A DNA stretch of 64,000 bases, from NCBI GenBank assembly GCA_937864365.1, contig CALMJT010000215.1:1-64000 (forward strand), written 5' to 3'. Under the pieces are notes generated by a model. The model was not told the origin of the DNA. It saw only the letters and a program-made list of their open reading frames with translations, and ran no database searches. Positions 2,180 to 61,922 of the stretch are shown one piece after another; positions within the stretch are counted from its first letter, which is position 1, and the number at the start of each line of letters is the position of its first letter. The stretch comes from an uncultured Alteromonadales bacterium. Lineage in GTDB: Bacteria; Pseudomonadota; Gammaproteobacteria; Pseudomonadales; Cellvibrionaceae. A program made the position numbers and the translations under genes.

Positions 2180-3058
2180 ATGCCAACAACATTGCCACAG
2201 GCTGCTATCGGTATTTTAGGTGGAAGCGGACTTTACCAAATGGACGCATTGGAGAATGTCACTGAACATTTGGTGGATACACCATTTGGTAAACCATCAG
2301 ATGCGTTGATTTGCGGAACTATTAATTCTGTTCCCGTTGTGTTTATCGCGCGTCATGGCCGAGGCCATCGTTTACTACCGACAGAAGTCCCCTATCGAGC
2401 CAACATTTTCGCGCTAAAACAATGTGGTGTGAAATACCTTATTTCCTTATCTGCTGTAGGGTCGTTACAAGAGCAACTTGCACCCAAACACATGGTTATT
2501 CCAGATCAGTACATCGATTTTACCAAAAAGCGTGACAGCAGCTTTTTTGGATCGGGCGCTGTTGCACACGTACCAATGGCACAACCGGTATGCCCTAATT
2601 TAGCGGATGTTTTAGCTCAGTCGGTAAGTAGCCTTGATGAACAAAGTCAGGTAACCCTGCACAGAGGTGGAACCTACGTTGCCATAGAGGGGCCGCAATT
2701 TTCGACCCTGGCAGAATCTTTGTGGTATCGATCTATGGGTGCGAGCATTTTAGGCATGACTAATATGCCAGAAGCAAAACTGGCTATGGAAGCGCAAATG
2801 GCTTACGCGTCTTTAGCGATGGTTACCGATTACGATTGTTGGCACCCGCACGAAGAACAAGTTTCTGCCGATATGGCAATCCGCAACCTAATGGAAAACG
2901 CCGCCAAAGCGCAGAAAATTGTTATTGATTTAGTAAAGCGAATTGATCAACAAAAACCGGTATCCAATGCGCACTCCATTTTGAGCACATCTTTAGTTAC
3001 ACCATTGGATGCCATGGACGAAGGCACAAAAGCCATTGTTGATATTTTAAGAAAATAA
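2180..3058 (+). CDS. mtnP: S-methyl-5'-thioadenosine / thioinosine phosphorylase family
   Basis: Purine-nucleoside phosphorylase of the MTAP class. It cleaves methylthioadenosine, or in some gammaproteobacteria methylthioinosine, with phosphate, salvaging purine and methylthioribose-1-phosphate. The sequence shows the phosphate loop GILGGSGLY at residues 11-19, the ARHGRGH motif near residue 58, IEGPQFST near residue 168, GMTNMPEA, and the base-site stretch MVTDYDCWH near residue 213. At 292 residues it is of normal length. A GGAG lies 5 bases before ATG 2180. It stands alone; no mtn pathway partners are adjacent. Deaminated versus adenine substrate cannot be decided by eye, so the gene name is given at family level. 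Confidence 0.9.
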   Translation: MPTTLPQAAIGILGGSGLYQMDALENVTEHLVDTPFGKPSDALICGTINSVPVVFIARHGRGHRLLPTEVPYRANIFALKQCGVKYLISLSAVGSLQEQLAPKHMVIPDQYIDFTKKRDSSFFGSGAVAHVPMAQPVCPNLADVLAQSVSSLDEQSQVTLHRGGTYVAIEGPQFSTLAESLWYRSMGASILGMTNMPEAKLAMEAQMAYASLAMVTDYDCWHPHEEQVSADMAIRNLMENAAKAQKIVIDLVKRIDQQKPVSNAHSILSTSLVTPLDAMDEGTKAIVDILRK

Positions 3059-3073
3059 CGACTATTAATTAAC

Positions 3074-3206
3074 GGGAATTGTTCAACACAAGGATGTGTC
3101 ATCGATACTAAGAACAGCAAGTGATCAAAATAGTGACAACATTGGAAATCGTGTTTTCCAGTTCGGCGCTCTGATTAAATCATGGCAGAGATAATCAGAG
3201 GCTGTT
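3074..3206 (+). repeat. Multi-hairpin interspersed repeat, copy A
   Basis: This is the most diverged of the five clear copies. The core ACACAAGGATGTGT hairpin (3086-3099; 5-bp stem, AGGA loop) is intact. The terminal hairpin CTCTGATTA/TAATCAGAG (near 3170-3199) is also kept. The first, left-end hairpin is lost. It lies in plus orientation in the 3' region of mtnP, so mtnP mRNA could carry it. Confidence 0.7.
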
Positions 3207-4061: not shown

Positions 4062-7000
4062 CTAAGTTTTAAAGGCCGGATTTTTTGACCATTCAGAATC
4101 TCGAACCCATTGCTCAAAGTTTTCTACGGTCATAGGGCGACCAATAAAATAACCCTGCGCCATATCACAATTCATCAAACCTAGACGATTTAGAATTTCC
4201 TTAGTTTCCACACCCTCTGCAACCACCTGCAAACCCAAGTTATGGGCGAGATTGACCGTTGAATTTACGATAACCGCGTCGTACTCATCGTTCATCATAT
4301 TTATAACGAAAGAGAAATCGATTTTTAAGGTAGAAACTGGCAGTTGTTTTAAATAGGCCAACGACGAATAACCTGTACCAAAATCGTCGATAGAAAGTGA
4401 AATACCCATATCATGCAATTCTTGCAAGGTGGCCAAAGCACCTTTAGGATCAACCATGATGGCACTTTCGGTAATTTCTAATTCTAAATTTTTTGCAGGG
4501 ACACGATATCGAACCAACGCATCACGAATAAAGTCCGATAAATTCCCGGCAACGAGATTACGCGCGGAAAGATTCACCGCAACCGTAATATTTTTACCCT
4601 CATTCATCCAGACTCGACATTGACGCAACGCATTGCGAATAACCCATAATGTCAGTGGATGAATTAAATCTGTCGCCTCAGCTAATGGAATAAATTCCGC
4701 CGGAGAAACAATTCCGTAGGTTTGATGATGCCATCGTAATAAAGCTTCACAACCAATTAATCTAGATTCATACAGACAAATTTTGGGTTGATAAAACAGC
4801 GTTAAACCATCATCGCGAATGGCCTGTGCTAAGTCATTCATTAACGCTAGGCGTTTATGAGTATATTGATCGAAAACAGGATCGTATTCTTGAATACCGA
4901 GCATTTCGGCCTTTGCTTGATACATCGACATATCGGCAAAGCGCATTAAGCTCGATATATCTCGACCATGTTCAGGGCAATAAGCAATTCCTAAACTCGC
5001 TCGAATTTCAACACCAATTTTTACCACCGTCACCCGCTGTTGAATTTCACTTAAAACAAGCTTTGCTAGGCTCAAACCTTCTTCTCTAGATTCTACATAA
5101 ACGGCCACGGCAAATTCATCACCGCCGAGACGTGACACTAAAGCCGGTTGATCTCTAAAAGCATTTTCAAGGCGTACTGCAAACGCTTGGAGTAACGCAT
5201 CACCCACATGGTGGCCCAAGGTATCGTTAATTTCTTTGAAGCGATCAAGATCGATGAGCATTAATGCGAGATTTCCGCCCTGATCAGTTTTGCTAATCGC
5301 CTCATCGATAAATTCGTAAAGGCGCTTTCTGTTGGGTAAATTCGTTAGCGAGTCGTGATTAGCTTGATATTCCAACTCTTCTAAATGAAGTTTGCGTTGT
5401 GTATCATCGCGGTGAAACGTCCAAAAACCATAAACGTAATCATCAATAATGACAGCATCGGTATTGATTGTGACCCAAATTTCCCGATCACTAACGCTTA
5501 AATTTTTAACTTCTAAGCAATTGAATTGAAAGTCATGAGTCTCAAACGCAGTTCTCAAGCTCTGTAACTGCTCTGCGGTAGCAATTTCCACCAAGGGTAA
5601 ATCTACGACATCGACATAAAAATCGTAACCGTTCTGGCGGGCAAACTCGTGATTACAATCAGCAATTTTGGCCGACGAAATAATTGCATCCGAATTATGT
5701 TTAGAAATATCGTCTAGGTGAATTCGGGTTTCAAGCTCAATAAAAGCAATACCGTCGTGGCTGTTTTGAATAAAACTGCGATAACGTTGTTCACTGCGTT
5801 TTAATTCAAGCTCACTTTCTACACGTTCGGTAACATCTTGATAAAACCCCCATATTTCAATGACAGCATCACCATCGAAACAAGCGTGTGCACTTAATTC
5901 GAGCCAAATTAAACGACCATCACTCAATCGCTGACTGAATAAAATAGAATCGAGCGAAAAATTATTATCAATTAATTGATAAATATATTTTTCTATACGA
6001 CTACTGGCCAATGGATAAACAGGTTTATCCAAAAGGTCTTTGCAATCAACACCAAGCCCTCTCGCATAGGAGTCATTAGCCTCGGTATACCGTAAGTACT
6101 CGCGAATCCATTGTGCTTTTGCTTCTCGACTTAACGACATTTGCATGGGGCGATCTAATTTTGCACCAAAAATTGCCCCTGAACTGTTAGCGATAAAATT
6201 GCGATAGCTAAGCTCTGCCCTTAAAGCATTAAATTCTTTTTGTTTAGCATCTGTAATATCGGCGATAATGACCATAACACCCATTAACTCGCCAACATCA
6301 TTTTTTAACGGTAAATGGTCATAACGAAACCATTTATTATCGCCTGAAGATAAATTGGACTCTACATTTAAAACAGCTTCTCCAGACTTAAGTACCTGCA
6401 AATTGTTACGATCGCAATACGACATAGCCTGCGATGCAGGGAAAATCTCTGCCAAGGTTTTTCCGGTTAAACTTAATGGCTGAGCATTTAAGTTCGAAAA
6501 TGCACAATAATTAGCGACCGTATAACGGCCATTGGCATCAACACACCAAACCGCACAGGGCAGGGAATTAATAATATTAACAACTGATTGCCAGTAATCA
6601 GATTCAAACCGCGAGTGACTCTTGGCTGATGCCGGTCGAGAGGTAGGATTAATGTTGTTTTCGGACATTAAATCATCATTGCCCAAAAATATGGCTGTAT
6701 TTTCGCTGCTGTGACAAAAATCCAGACGAGCTTCTAACAGCTCTCCATCGATGCATTCATCATCAAAAACTAACCCAACACCGTGCAGTTTATTCTCACA
6801 CAAACTTGCTGCTTCATCTGCCACAGACAGTAATGCATCAGTTTTACCAGCAAGCCGTGCTTTGGCGAATTGATTAGGATCGGTTTCTATTTGTTCTGGA
6901 TCATTAATATCGGCTTCAAGACTCAGTAACTCTTGATTCACAGACAACTTGACGGCGGTCCAGCGAGAGACTAAAGAGCCATGAGAGAAAAATAATGTTA

Positions 7001-22287: not shown

Positions 22288-22301
22288 CTGCAAAACCTTT
22301 A

Positions 22302-22342
22302 GAAAGCTCTAATCAACGCTACCGTGATTTAATCAGAGTTTC
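22302..22342. repeat. Inverted repeat resembling the ends of the multi-hairpin repeat
   Basis: GAAAGCTCTAATCA pairs imperfectly with TGATTTAATCAGAGTTTC. Both arms resemble the GGAAACTCTGATTAA terminus of the interspersed repeats, so this may be two ends left after loss of the centre. It sits between convergent genes and may act as a terminator for both. Confidence 0.5.
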
Positions 22343-22725: not shown

Positions 22726-22786
22726 GAAGTGTTCCCACATAAAAATAGAGACAATTGCCAATTAATTTAGCGTTACATTTAACTAA

Positions 22787-22939
22787 AGGAAACTCTGATT
22801 AACCTAGAGTTTCTCGCGACACAAGGATGTGTCGCCAATTTCAAGAACTGTAAGTGATTGAAATTGTGAAGAAATTGGAAATCACATTTTCAATTTCTGC
22901 CCTCTGATTAAATCAAGGATGAGTTAATCAGAGGTTCCT
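22787..22939 (+). repeat. Multi-hairpin interspersed repeat, copy B (best preserved)
   Basis: Five consecutive hairpins are visible. (1) GAAACTCT/AGAGTTTC, 22789-22813. (2) GCGACACA-AGGA-TGTGTCGC, 22816-22835, perfect. (3) CAATTTCA/TGAAATTG, 22836-22866. (4) GAAATTGGAAAT/ATTTTCAATTTC, 22871-22897. (5) CCTCTGATTAA/TTAATCAGAGG, 22901-22934, perfect 11 bp with GGA in the loop. The ends AGGAAACTCTGATTAA and TTAATCAGAGGTTCCT form imperfect terminal inverted repeats. It lies between two minus-strand genes, in the opposite orientation to them. Confidence 0.85.
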
Positions 22940-22943
22940 AAAA

Positions 22944-44754: not shown

Positions 44755-44905
44755 AGGAAACTCTGAATAACCTAGAGTTTCCAGCGACACAAGGATGTGT
44801 CGTCAATTTCAAAAACGGTACATGATTGAAATTGAGAAATTAGAAATCGCATTTTCAATTTCTGTCCTCTGATTAAATCAGGAGATGGGCTAATCAGAGG
44901 CTCCT
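44755..44905 (+). repeat. Multi-hairpin interspersed repeat, copy C
   Basis: Same order as copy B: GGAAACTCT/AGAGTTTCC, CGACACA-AGGA-TGTGTCG, CAATTTCA-type and AAATTAGAAAT-type stems, then CCTCTGATTA/TAATCAGAGG with GGA in the loop at 44881-44883. The core ACAAGGATGT is at 44789-44798. The right flank TCCTAAAATTAA is shared with copy B. It is opposite in orientation to the genes on both sides. Confidence 0.83.
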
Positions 44906-45716: not shown

Positions 45717-46210
45717 ATTTTCTCACACGAACAGGTACTGAAAATTTTCGCAGCGAGCTTATAACAAGCTATAGCTTAAGGACAATTTGAAAAGAAATTC
45801 AGTTTTAAAAATCAGTAACTGTCCAAAGTTTTTAACAAATTGTCCAATTTTAAAAAAATAACAGCTGATTTTAATATTTCGATTCAGAAAAATCTGGTAA
45901 TCGCTGCGTCTTTGGAGCCAAATCATTCCATCAACTGTTATACCCAGTCTAGCGCTTTTCAACGGATGTATTTTCTCACAGAGGGTGCAGTAGAGGACAA
46001 GATGAACATAATGATTATTTATTCACATTTCACCGACAATAATCACAGGTTTACTTGTTAGCGAATCGAATTCGCCATCTTTTGATGTACCACAAGCATT
46101 TTCAAACGATAAACCGATTAATTTTGCAGCATAACTCACGACCACAGTGGTGTAGATTGCCGGATTCGTAAATCATTCTTATCACTTTAGAAAGAATAAA
46201 GAACACACCA
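45717..46210. other. Gene-poor AT-rich sequence
   Basis: The first part of a 1.4-kb gap. A 73-residue open frame at 45840-46061 has no ribosome site or protein-like pattern. The rest of the gap contains decayed repeat copies, annotated separately. Confidence 0.4.
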
Positions 46211-46311
46211 AATAACTCTGAGTTTCTAGCGATATAAGACAGCATTGTTAATCGTAATAACGATAAGTAATCGAAATACCTCTAAGATGGGTCACAATCA
46301 GAACTTCTCAA
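46211..46311 (+). repeat. Heavily decayed copy of the multi-hairpin repeat
   Basis: AATAACTCTGAGTTTCTAGC and GATAAGTAATCGAAAT line up in order and spacing with the left end and third hairpin of copy C. The AGGA core is lost. The match is by eye and weak. Confidence 0.4.
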
Positions 46312-46850
46312 AATAGGTATTCAAAAAGCACTCCAAAGCCGTTAAGAGCGATTTATGCAGATATTCTCAGAAGGTAGATCACTCCTAAAAAATATAACTG
46401 CGCAAGCCGATCACAATTTGACTTTTTGCGTCACTATCTAACGAGATTTAACAACAACCGATTTTTAGCTAATTGAAATCTGGTTATTATTATTTTTTCA
46501 TAAAATTAAGATTGAATTCTGCCGATCTGAAATTCGGCCAGATCCATTCGCGTTACCTATAAAAAAGAATAAATTTCACAGAAAGCGTCGCTGATAAGGC
46601 ATTTAGGGATGAATTTTTTAAACGCTTAACCAAACGTGTCACTTAGTGACATTGATACAACCAACGGTCGAGTTAATTCGTAAAATCCCGAAACATCGTA
46701 TTTTTAAACGCCATTAGATATTCAGTACTCAGGTGAGCTCAACTTTCACATACGGTTTATCTACCATCGTATTGTTCGAGTTACTAGTGATAGGATCGGA
46801 GGTTCTAACGAACGTATCTAGGGTTTAATCAGCGAAAAAATTTGACAAGG

Positions 46851-46948
46851 TGGCTTTCAATTTCTCTACGACTTCAATCACCTACAGTTCTTGAAATTGG
46901 CGGATACACCGCTGTGCTATTAGAAACACTAGCTTAAGCAGAGTTTCC
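46851..46948 (-). repeat. Decayed copy of the multi-hairpin repeat, reverse orientation
   Basis: On the minus strand it reads GGAAACTCTGCTTAAGCTAG, then a changed core (GCACAGCGGTGTAT), then CCAATTTCAAGAACTGTAGG and GTGATTGAAG, in the same order as copy B. The right end is missing. The AGGA loop has mutated to GCGG. Confidence 0.65.
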
Positions 46949-47100
46949 GAATGTAATTTTCGGATGTGAAGAATATTTGTACTGCCGAGATAAGATGAAA
47001 AAGAATTTATGGAGATTGACTGGGAATTAGCCTAACAGAGGATAGAATTAGCAGCGGATGTTTAGCAGGCCCACCATAGCAGTGCGCCTGCTCAAGAGCA

Positions 47101-47912: not shown

Positions 47913-48181
47913 AGGAATCTCTAATTAACCTCAAAATTACTCAACGTGATCTCAAGCTCGCAATTGCAAGGCGACATTTACACTTAATAATCGTGACCCT
48001 AAACAAAAACTGTAATGCAGCAAATATGCTGAGTAAAGCGCAGCCCTATTGAACCCTACTCGTTTTTTCTTGCTGTAGTGTTTGCTTTTTCGATTTAAGT
48101 CGTTAGAGCCGAAAGCACACCTTAATAAAAAATAAAAAAACTTGCTGACCTGAATGACCTTGAGGTTAATCAGAATTCCCT
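47913..48181. repeat. 270-bp segment with ends like the multi-hairpin repeat
   Basis: The left end AGGAATCTCTAATTAACCTC and the right end GAGGTTAATCAGAATTCCCT are imperfect inverted repeats of each other, and both resemble the AGGAAACTCTGATTAA terminus of the repeat family. The interior differs from copies A-D and lacks the AGGA core. It may be a related element of another internal type. Confidence 0.5.
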
Positions 48182-49042: not shown

Positions 49043-49291
49043 TGTTGTTCCTCAATTTCTCGGTTGAATACAGGACACCGATTATAACAGCTCTGTTGTT
49101 CTGAGAAACCTATCGGAATCTTCGCCTAAGTCATCTGCTCCTGAATCGGTACATTGAAATTGGAAATACGATTTCCAGGTTTTTACTCGATTTTGGCAAT
49201 TTATCATTATCGAAAAATCGACTGTAGATCGCAGACTCATGGACGCAGCAAGTTAATCGGTGCACCGAGCATCATTATTGAGCTTAATGGA

Positions 49292-61500: not shown

Positions 61501-61922
61501 AGAAACCTCTGATTAACTCTTCCCTGATTTAAATCAGAGGACAGAAATCGAAACGGAAGTCGAAAATGCGATTTCCGTTTCAATACGAATTCAATCACCT
61601 ATCGTTTATTAACGTTTATTCGATCGACATCAACACTTCTGTAATAGCGACATTAACCAATTTTTTCGGTTAAAACTCACAACTATATTTGTGAGCTTTA
61701 CTCGCGATATCGGTAATCTAATGCGATTATTCAACGGCTACTGGCGCTCATCATTACTGTTAAATACATCGTTTTGAAGGCTTTCTCTAGATGTAATTCA
61801 TTCGATTTATATCACATCTAACATTCTTATAGCTTCAGTCGTAACAACGGTAAAAACACCGTAACAATCTTATGGAACACATCCTTGTGTCGCGGGAAAC
61901 TCTAGGTTAATCAGAGTTTCCT
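61501..61922 (-). repeat. Multi-hairpin interspersed repeat, copy E (expanded, reverse orientation)
   Basis: Read on the minus strand it starts AGGAAACTCTGATTAACC at 61922 and reaches the core ACACAAGGATGTGT (ACAAGGATGT at 61888-61879). It ends with the CCTCTGATT...AATCAGAGG hairpin with a GGA loop near 61509-61540. Between the second and third hairpins lie about 266 extra bases (61608-61873) not seen in other copies. These extra bases contain their own stems, for example CTCACAA/TTGTGAG and CGGT/ACCG. Either an insertion into the element or a longer element type. Confidence 0.75.

Follow-up and report, generated by a model that had tools for sequence, protein, structure and literature searches.

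Bacterial MITEs, as portrayed in the available portions of a review (PMC10969869), are short and geneless, carry inverted repeats and a target duplication, lie between genes at AT-rich sites, form stable folds and are moved in trans by insertion sequences (IS). The repeat that we describe here resembles them in each of these respects, its movement in trans being predicted. What sets it apart is an interior of five hairpins that covaries across genera, whereas those portions of the review describe stable folds rather than conserved structure; the text of the review contains no mention of CsrA. QMITE1 and QMITE2 of Coxiella burnetii are also gammaproteobacterial MITEs, for which the available passages of PMC5896051 give about 50 copies and three derived sRNAs. 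QMITE1 is 300-400 bp long with 2-3 nt repeats and QMITE2 is about 190 bp long with 7-9 bp repeats; the same passages report no orthologues of QMITE1 and leave CsrA unmentioned. We set our element apart from both by these descriptions. The element also has a feature in common with certain regulatory RNAs. In the prevailing view, a small number of dedicated sRNAs keep global regulators such as CsrA in balance. According to the available sections of PMC7652899 and PMC4005645, CsrB/CsrC and RsmX/Y/Z bind CsrA or RsmE through GGA loops on stems, as the element's own loops would, and these RNAs come from single-locus sRNA genes with more sites than the element has (22 GGA in CsrB, 6 in RsmX).

The window, by which we mean the whole stretch of 64,000 nucleotides that was analyzed, holds an intact 153-bp element on the plus strand at positions 22787-22939 (copy B), recognized from its sequence, a genome search and its fold. 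It is flanked by a TAAA target duplication. The left copy of this duplication occupies positions 22784-22787, its last A being the first base of the element as delimited in a preliminary description of this DNA, and the right copy, read from the sequence, occupies positions 22939-22942. Copy B RNA folds into five consecutive hairpins with a z of -8.1, which none of 200 shuffled sequences equaled, and the five-hairpin order given for this copy in the preliminary description is thereby confirmed. Folded as DNA, copy B has a z of -10.5, likewise equaled by none of 200 shuffles. Fold and covariation together place hairpin 1 at positions 22788-22814, with its 5' arm within the left terminal inverted repeat; hairpin 2 at positions 22816-22835, with an ANGGAX loop that is also defined by loop entropies; hairpin 3 at positions 22836-22866; hairpin 4 at positions 22870-22898, with a YCRCR loop that is also marked by its conservation; and hairpin 5 at positions 22901-22934, with its 3' arm within the right terminal inverted repeat, all on the plus strand. 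In contrast to CsrB/CsrC and RsmX/Y/Z, the element is dispersed and transposable and has two sites, and copy B has no promoter or terminator: a scan of copy B found neither a promoter-like site nor a terminator inside it, and the single promoter-like site of that scan lies upstream of the element, at chance level.

All five copies named in the preliminary description are present and stand far above chance. Besides copy B, these are a near-complete plus-strand copy at positions 44755-44905, in which the hairpin 2 motif is intact and the hairpin 5 loop is altered; diverged plus-strand copies at positions 3056-3206 (a model match of 70 bits) and 55839 to about 56006 (75 bits, clear only to 55956); and a single minus-strand copy at positions 61501-61922, found as two partial matches and split mid-way by about 270 bp. 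Several further features had been missed, namely a diverged minus-strand copy at positions 46797-46949 (65.5 bits), fragments at positions 46210-46277 (plus strand) and 49115-49215 (minus strand), a right-end hairpin fragment at positions 22301-22338 (minus strand) and, at positions 47913-48181 on the plus strand, a 269-bp element of a different family that has the same terminal inverted repeats.

The terminal inverted repeats of the element, AGGAAACTCTGATTAA and TTAATCAGAGGTTCCT, are 15-16 bp long, and its 153 bp hold no transposase open reading frame. In 347 kb of DNA picked for matches, 34 of the 57 pairings of facing ends have a spacing of 153 bp. The other spacings are 150-152 bp (5 pairings), 42-44 bp (5), 85 bp, 265 bp, 269 bp and 173-175 bp (3, two of which are shifted readings of nested copies), and the longest pairings join neighboring elements. 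When the element is read as GGAAAC...GGTTCC, a perfect 4-bp TNNA duplication flanks 41 of the 53 intact-ended copies of the own genome, where chance agreement at the two middle bases would give 13.6 of 53. Our first reading, a 2-bp duplication with AGGAAAC ends, was discarded, as moving the boundary by one base yields a 4-bp TNNA duplication, in line with the IS5 partner. At least the 2 middle base pairs of the duplication are kept in 35 of 60 copies from named records (chance, 15.3), 14 of which have the full TNNA; among class representatives the middle base pairs are kept in 19 of 28 (chance, 10.0), and 15 have the full TNNA. Some copies are inserted inside other copies.

A YTAR duplication is the rule of the IS5 group. 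Longer transposons with ends matching those of the element, a search for which had been proposed, were found in relatives as IS elements of 1.08-1.19 kb. Five of these are flanked by TTAG/TTAG (twice), CTAA/CTAA (once), an imperfect CTAG/TTAG (once) and, in one case, no duplication. Against NCBIfam IS5_4 (NF033581), the cut-off of which is 140 bits, the 337-aa transposase of locus L096 scores 349.5 bits and the 313-aa transposase of L101 scores 321 bits. In the own genome, only cut C-termini of IS5-type transposases lie at two contig ends, one of them about 110 bp from a matching end. The transposase search of this genome covered the DDE_Tnp_1 and PF13340 families and gave 4 DDE_Tnp_1 matches, none of them within the window, and no PF13340 transposase, in agreement with the earlier statement that the window holds no transposase. 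Three of these DDE_Tnp_1 matches (L061-L063) have no such ends in the DNA examined. The element is like IS5-family insertion sequences (NF033581) in its ends and its 4-bp duplication and unlike them in having no transposase gene and an unrelated interior; the five-hairpin module gave 0 matches at E values up to 1 in 30 IS5-type loci (84 kb). Given the inverted repeats, the TNNA duplication, the nesting and the IS5 partners with the same ends, "MITE" is the right name: the repeat is a non-autonomous transposable element, as had been suspected. Its ends suggest that an IS5 transposase moves it in trans, in that IS5-family transposases would recognize ends of the GGAACCTCTGATTAA type and leave a target duplication of 4 bp.

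Other families of small bacterial repeats fit less well. REP and BIME sequences are associated with RAYT, a tyrosine transposase, and lack terminal inverted repeats with target duplication, so the inverted repeats and duplication of the element rule them out. MITEs of the ERIC, NEMIS and RUP type duplicate a TA dinucleotide, and this kind is ruled out by a TNNA duplication with varied middle letters. Thiomargarita MITEs differ as well, since they have 10-bp duplications or TATAG ends in the available portions of PMC4853749.

The element is abundant in its own genome (4.72 Mb in 231 contigs), where the right-end motif occurs 513 times with at most one mismatch and a reversed control occurs 0 times. 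Since a single base distinguishes the left end from the right, these 513 motifs correspond to roughly 250 elements. A search of this genome with copy B, in which the best 40 of 751 candidates were scored, returned at least 67 matches, of which 40 are close to full length and 97-100% identical. A covariance model described below (R2) matched all 150 of the candidates scored out of 3126 first-look candidates, and a match-rich sample of 433,575 bases gave 143 matches, of which 87 are almost complete in length. Twenty of the stretches analyzed had been chosen because they contained matches. The genome search that the preliminary description had called for thus revealed hundreds of further copies. 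Among the matches listed, many contigs of the own genome (for example, C7, C12 and C74) start about 35-55 bp inside an element; the element therefore seems to break the assembly, and the copy number is probably underestimated. Gene context was taken from the own genome only, since that of the named-record loci is unreliable, with 34 of 72 copies falling "inside" mechanically called open reading frames. In the own genome, 86 of 87 copies are intergenic and lie closer to stops than to starts, and their orientation to genes is near random, the upstream gene being on the same strand in 43 cases and on the opposite strand in 39.

Beyond this genome, a covariance model built from the own copies and one congener copy (R1) matched 8 of 100 genomes of the family, these being the own genome, the congener and six genomes from other genera. 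In G004, G028, G009, G435 and G007 the hairpin order is kept and the stems are different; the remaining matches in the six other-genus genomes are weak or partial. The second model, R2, was built from 14 members, all from the family of the host, and from no class genome other than the own one. It matched 15 of 390 genomes of the order, including elements with the ends AGCAGGCTGTTGAAA or TTAACCCGGCA, and 68 of 369 genomes of the class, or 52 of 272 genera, with the own genome counted in. The 375 order genomes and 301 class genomes without a match served as its controls. Scoring was limited to 7-8 candidates per genome, so that the R2 matches per order or class genome are lower bounds, and in class genomes often all 8 scored candidates were positive. 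The class is probably Gammaproteobacteria, because the matches in G537 and G778 agree in place and score with those in the named records JALTLT01 and JAHFRV01, respectively. A pattern for the common form of the element found 81 stretches in named records, the hosts of which are Gammaproteobacteria MAGs (several from groundwater), Thiotrichales MAGs and the Olavius algarvensis Gamma 3 endosymbiont. That the hosts are mostly uncultured may explain why the element went unnoticed. With one representative as the query, blastn found no match in plasmids, phages or 5,426 E. coli genomes; viral contigs contained no exact match of one hairpin 2 pattern; and a 32-base stretch of the own element had 0 exact occurrences in named genomes, a collection that may omit the own species.

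The covariance model check proposed in the preliminary description bore out that the stems carry compensatory changes, and it was decisive only across genera. In an alignment of 86 own copies and two congener copies, 91.3% of the pair cells are paired, and there are 53 double changes against 17.5 in shuffled alignments, but controls with the partners slid give 32-43. Watson-Crick pairing is restored by 46 of 90 own-genome double changes, while 4 lead to G.U and 40 are unpaired; most of the double changes come from old, poorly preserved copies. Covariation in the own genome alone, hardly above its slid controls, is weak as proof, and our conclusion does not depend on it. A pairing between the two ends of the element was likewise rejected (6 double changes against 2.9 shuffled, with slid controls of 6-14). 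Single changes in the stems of the 86 own copies produce G.U 147 times and A.C 140 times, and in 40 copies of 60-95% identity the motif positions are changed in 16.3% of cases against 21.0% for matched columns (P 0.07). These counts indicate that old copies decay nearly neutrally, and structure within the single genome looks to be mostly a reflection of inheritance.

For the comparison across genera we aligned 29 class representatives and copy B with MAFFT, blind to structure (alignment A7; identity of 57-96%, median 72%). A7 takes 29 of the 68 matching class genomes, those for which loci were returned, and its members were found with R2. RNAalifold predicted 43 pairs from A7, 30 of them with compensatory changes; they cover hairpins 1-4 and the base of hairpin 5, which is the only part of hairpin 5 present in the alignment-wide structure. 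A7 contains 169 double changes, compared with 44.3 ± 6.9 after shuffling and 15-56 with the partners slid, and 95.7% of its pair cells are paired. Alignments A5/A6 gave 131 double changes against 43.4, a figure that leans toward structure because their rows were picked and aligned with models. The interior is thus no degenerate remnant of a transposon but a conserved five-hairpin module that is kept by compensatory change across many genera. A MITE-like element and a structured RNA family had been put forward as alternatives; the data support both, and the two are not mutually exclusive. The pair of stems cited at that time as an instance of covariation, GAAACTCT/AGAGTTTC against GGAAACTCT/AGAGTTTCC, did not hold up, being merely a stem extension. 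What is under constraint is the lineage of active elements and not the old copies, as would be expected if the element itself, or fresh insertions, profited, and less so if every copy had a fixed role in the host.

A first alternative is that the repeat is an ordinary IS5-derived MITE whose function is transposition only and whose hairpins arose incidentally from palindromic ends and internal rearrangement. The full set of MITE hallmarks, the near-neutral decay of aged copies and their near-random orientation would all be expected of such an element, and the order contains further palindromic MITEs that share these ends and have different interiors. On the other hand, three internal hairpins outside the inverted repeats covary across genera, loop letters stay while stems change, and the IS5-type loci that we fetched carry no such module. 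We consider this alternative unlikely, although it is the strongest of those that we weighed.

The loop of hairpin 2 points to a more specific role for the five-hairpin module. Among the 30 representatives, the columns C-A-N-G-G-A-N-G of hairpin 2 have entropies of 0.21, 0, 1.37, 0, 0.21, 0, 1.30 and 0 bits, respectively; the loop reads CANGGANG, and the two N are its sole freely varying positions. The preliminary description had overlooked this loop. The RsmE consensus in the available part of PMC6849547 is (A/U)CANGGANG(U/A), and its two N are the free columns of hairpin 2. In copy B, ACAAGGATGT at positions 22821-22830 on the plus strand is an exact match to this RsmE/CsrA consensus, and TCAAGGATGA at positions 22913-22922 on the same strand, in hairpin 5, is a second. 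The available part of PMC4005645 describes the high-affinity site as an ANGGAX hexaloop that caps a stem directly and in which N and X are variable and looped out, and hairpin 2 has this arrangement. The corresponding part of PMC7652899 gives RUACARGGAUGU as the CsrA SELEX consensus and CAGGA(U/A/C)G as the CsrB repeat, and mentions a proposal that one CsrA dimer binds a single transcript at two sites. CsrA sites are generally paired, according to the available text of PMC4383904, and the element offers two. The SELEX hairpins mostly have 4 or fewer contiguous pairs (PMC7652899, available part), so the long stems of the element could weaken CsrA binding.

Both hairpins carry these sites widely. 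In hairpin 2, 27 of 30 representatives show the core CANGGANG and 24 show the full 10-letter consensus; in hairpin 5, 9 of 30 show CANGGANG and 15 match the CsrB repeat CAGGA(U/A/C)G, which makes 24 with either and 6 with neither. Both hairpins qualify as CsrA-type in 21 of the 30. On the plus strand there are 33 occurrences of the full 10-letter consensus (one in hairpin 3), compared with 0 on the minus strand and 0.3 in shuffles. These motif counts are not independent across genera, because the representatives are related by descent, and the model that selected them itself contains GGA loops. In 19 order-level members with different ends, a GGA loop is present in 13 hairpins 2 and 17 hairpins 5, compared with 0 hairpins 1, 0 hairpins 3 and 1 hairpin 4. 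A csrA-like reading frame was not found in about a tenth of the own genome that was examined.

A second alternative is that the structure is needed as DNA, with single-stranded or cruciform hairpins recognized by a transposase, a replication factor or a nucleoid protein during transposition. IS5-family DDE transposases act on double-stranded ends, which speaks against this alternative. The stems do fold as DNA (z of -10.5), and a constraint on the active-element lineage rather than on old copies is what this alternative would lead one to expect. However, the stems of the A7 representatives contain 58 G.U against 25 A.C, an excess that is unexpected for a DNA hairpin and favors RNA of the described strand, and the conserved loop pattern equals an RNA-binding consensus. 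We regard a requirement for DNA structure as improbable. The RNA strand of the element would be the plus strand by the G.U excess; when the folds of the two strands were compared, the minus strand was better in 7 of 18 members.

On balance, we favor the explanation that the repeat is an IS5-mobilized MITE with a five-hairpin module, the transcript of which carries two CsrA/RsmA-type hairpins that most likely bind CsrA. In a plus-strand transcript, hairpin 2 would present an ANGGAX hexaloop and hairpin 5 either the same loop or a shorter AGGA; such loops are the kinds of site for which high and intermediate affinity to dimeric CsrA/RsmA/RsmE have been published. The transcripts probably arise by read-through from neighboring genes: with no promoter-like site inside copy B, read-through would produce the sense strand of some copies and not that of many others. 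To judge by the loops, it is likely that CsrA binds these transcripts, whereas a physiological role as a CsrA sponge or in rewiring regulation is a more doubtful step that we propose tentatively. Insertions bound by CsrA could act as decoys or as cis regulatory sites, which would tie the spread of the element to the Csr system.

Extended to its full reach, the preferred explanation becomes speculative. The element may represent a transposon lineage, present in many genera of one class, whose conserved cargo is a two-site CsrA/RsmA-binding RNA that acts as a dispersed sponge and wires new genes to the Csr network, to the gain of the element. With up to hundreds of insertions per genome, the read-through transcripts could constitute such a sponge, and the element might gain, for example, from eased CsrA control of its own spread or that of its partner while single copies stay free to decay. 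If this is true, an element that multiplies CsrA-type sites by hundreds is a separate, evolvable input to regulation, and the interior of a MITE gains a selectable RNA function. The question of whether mobile DNA rewires post-transcriptional regulation in bacteria is thereby made testable. Very improbable, finally, is a host-useful repeat at transcript ends that works in the manner of REP/BIME through mRNA protection, attenuation or RNase III processing without CsrA, because, although the intergenic position of 86 of 87 own copies nearer stops than starts would suit it, the copies have no orientation bias and decay near-neutrally, copy B has no terminator-like site, and CANGGANG is left unexplained.

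The element is absent from Rfam. There was no match at the gathering threshold in the window and none at E values up to 1 in 12 loci, while 13 loci searched at E values up to 1 gave only two sub-threshold MIR1858 matches, outside the element; no covariance match was found to any Rfam family, including CsrB, RsmX, RsmY and RsmZ. In the literature, as represented by titles, abstracts and passages with few subscription journals among them, we found no paper that describes the element or links CsrA to MITEs, and the papers naming both CsrA and MITE, including PMC4383904, use the terms apart in the passages available.

Variants of the element and of its relatives were also seen. In three loci with AGCAGGCTGTTGAA-like ends (L157, L159 and L169), loops 2 and 5 contain no GGA, and these loci offer a natural test of the CsrA idea. 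The YCRCR loop of hairpin 4 is kept in class representatives, and in L131, L153, L154, L158, L167 and L168 this hairpin is extended and has a conserved stretch inside it. A second family of elements of 265-269 bp, with one of 175 bp, has the same ends and another interior (window positions 47913-48181; L046 positions 6180-6444 and 1964-2138), and 265-327 bp elements in G317 and G023 resemble this family by eye. Solo terminal hairpins of 44 bp were found in L043 (5679-5722), L048 (7496-7539) and L049 (7857-7900 and 13687-13730), and one of 42 bp in L042 (17950-17991); because two of these five, those in L048 and L042, have identical flanking 2 bp, the hairpin alone may transpose. Finally, G199, a genome of the same family as the host (L068, L081 and L093), has 88 exact end motifs with no R2 match and carries a different, nearly fully palindromic element of 215 bp.
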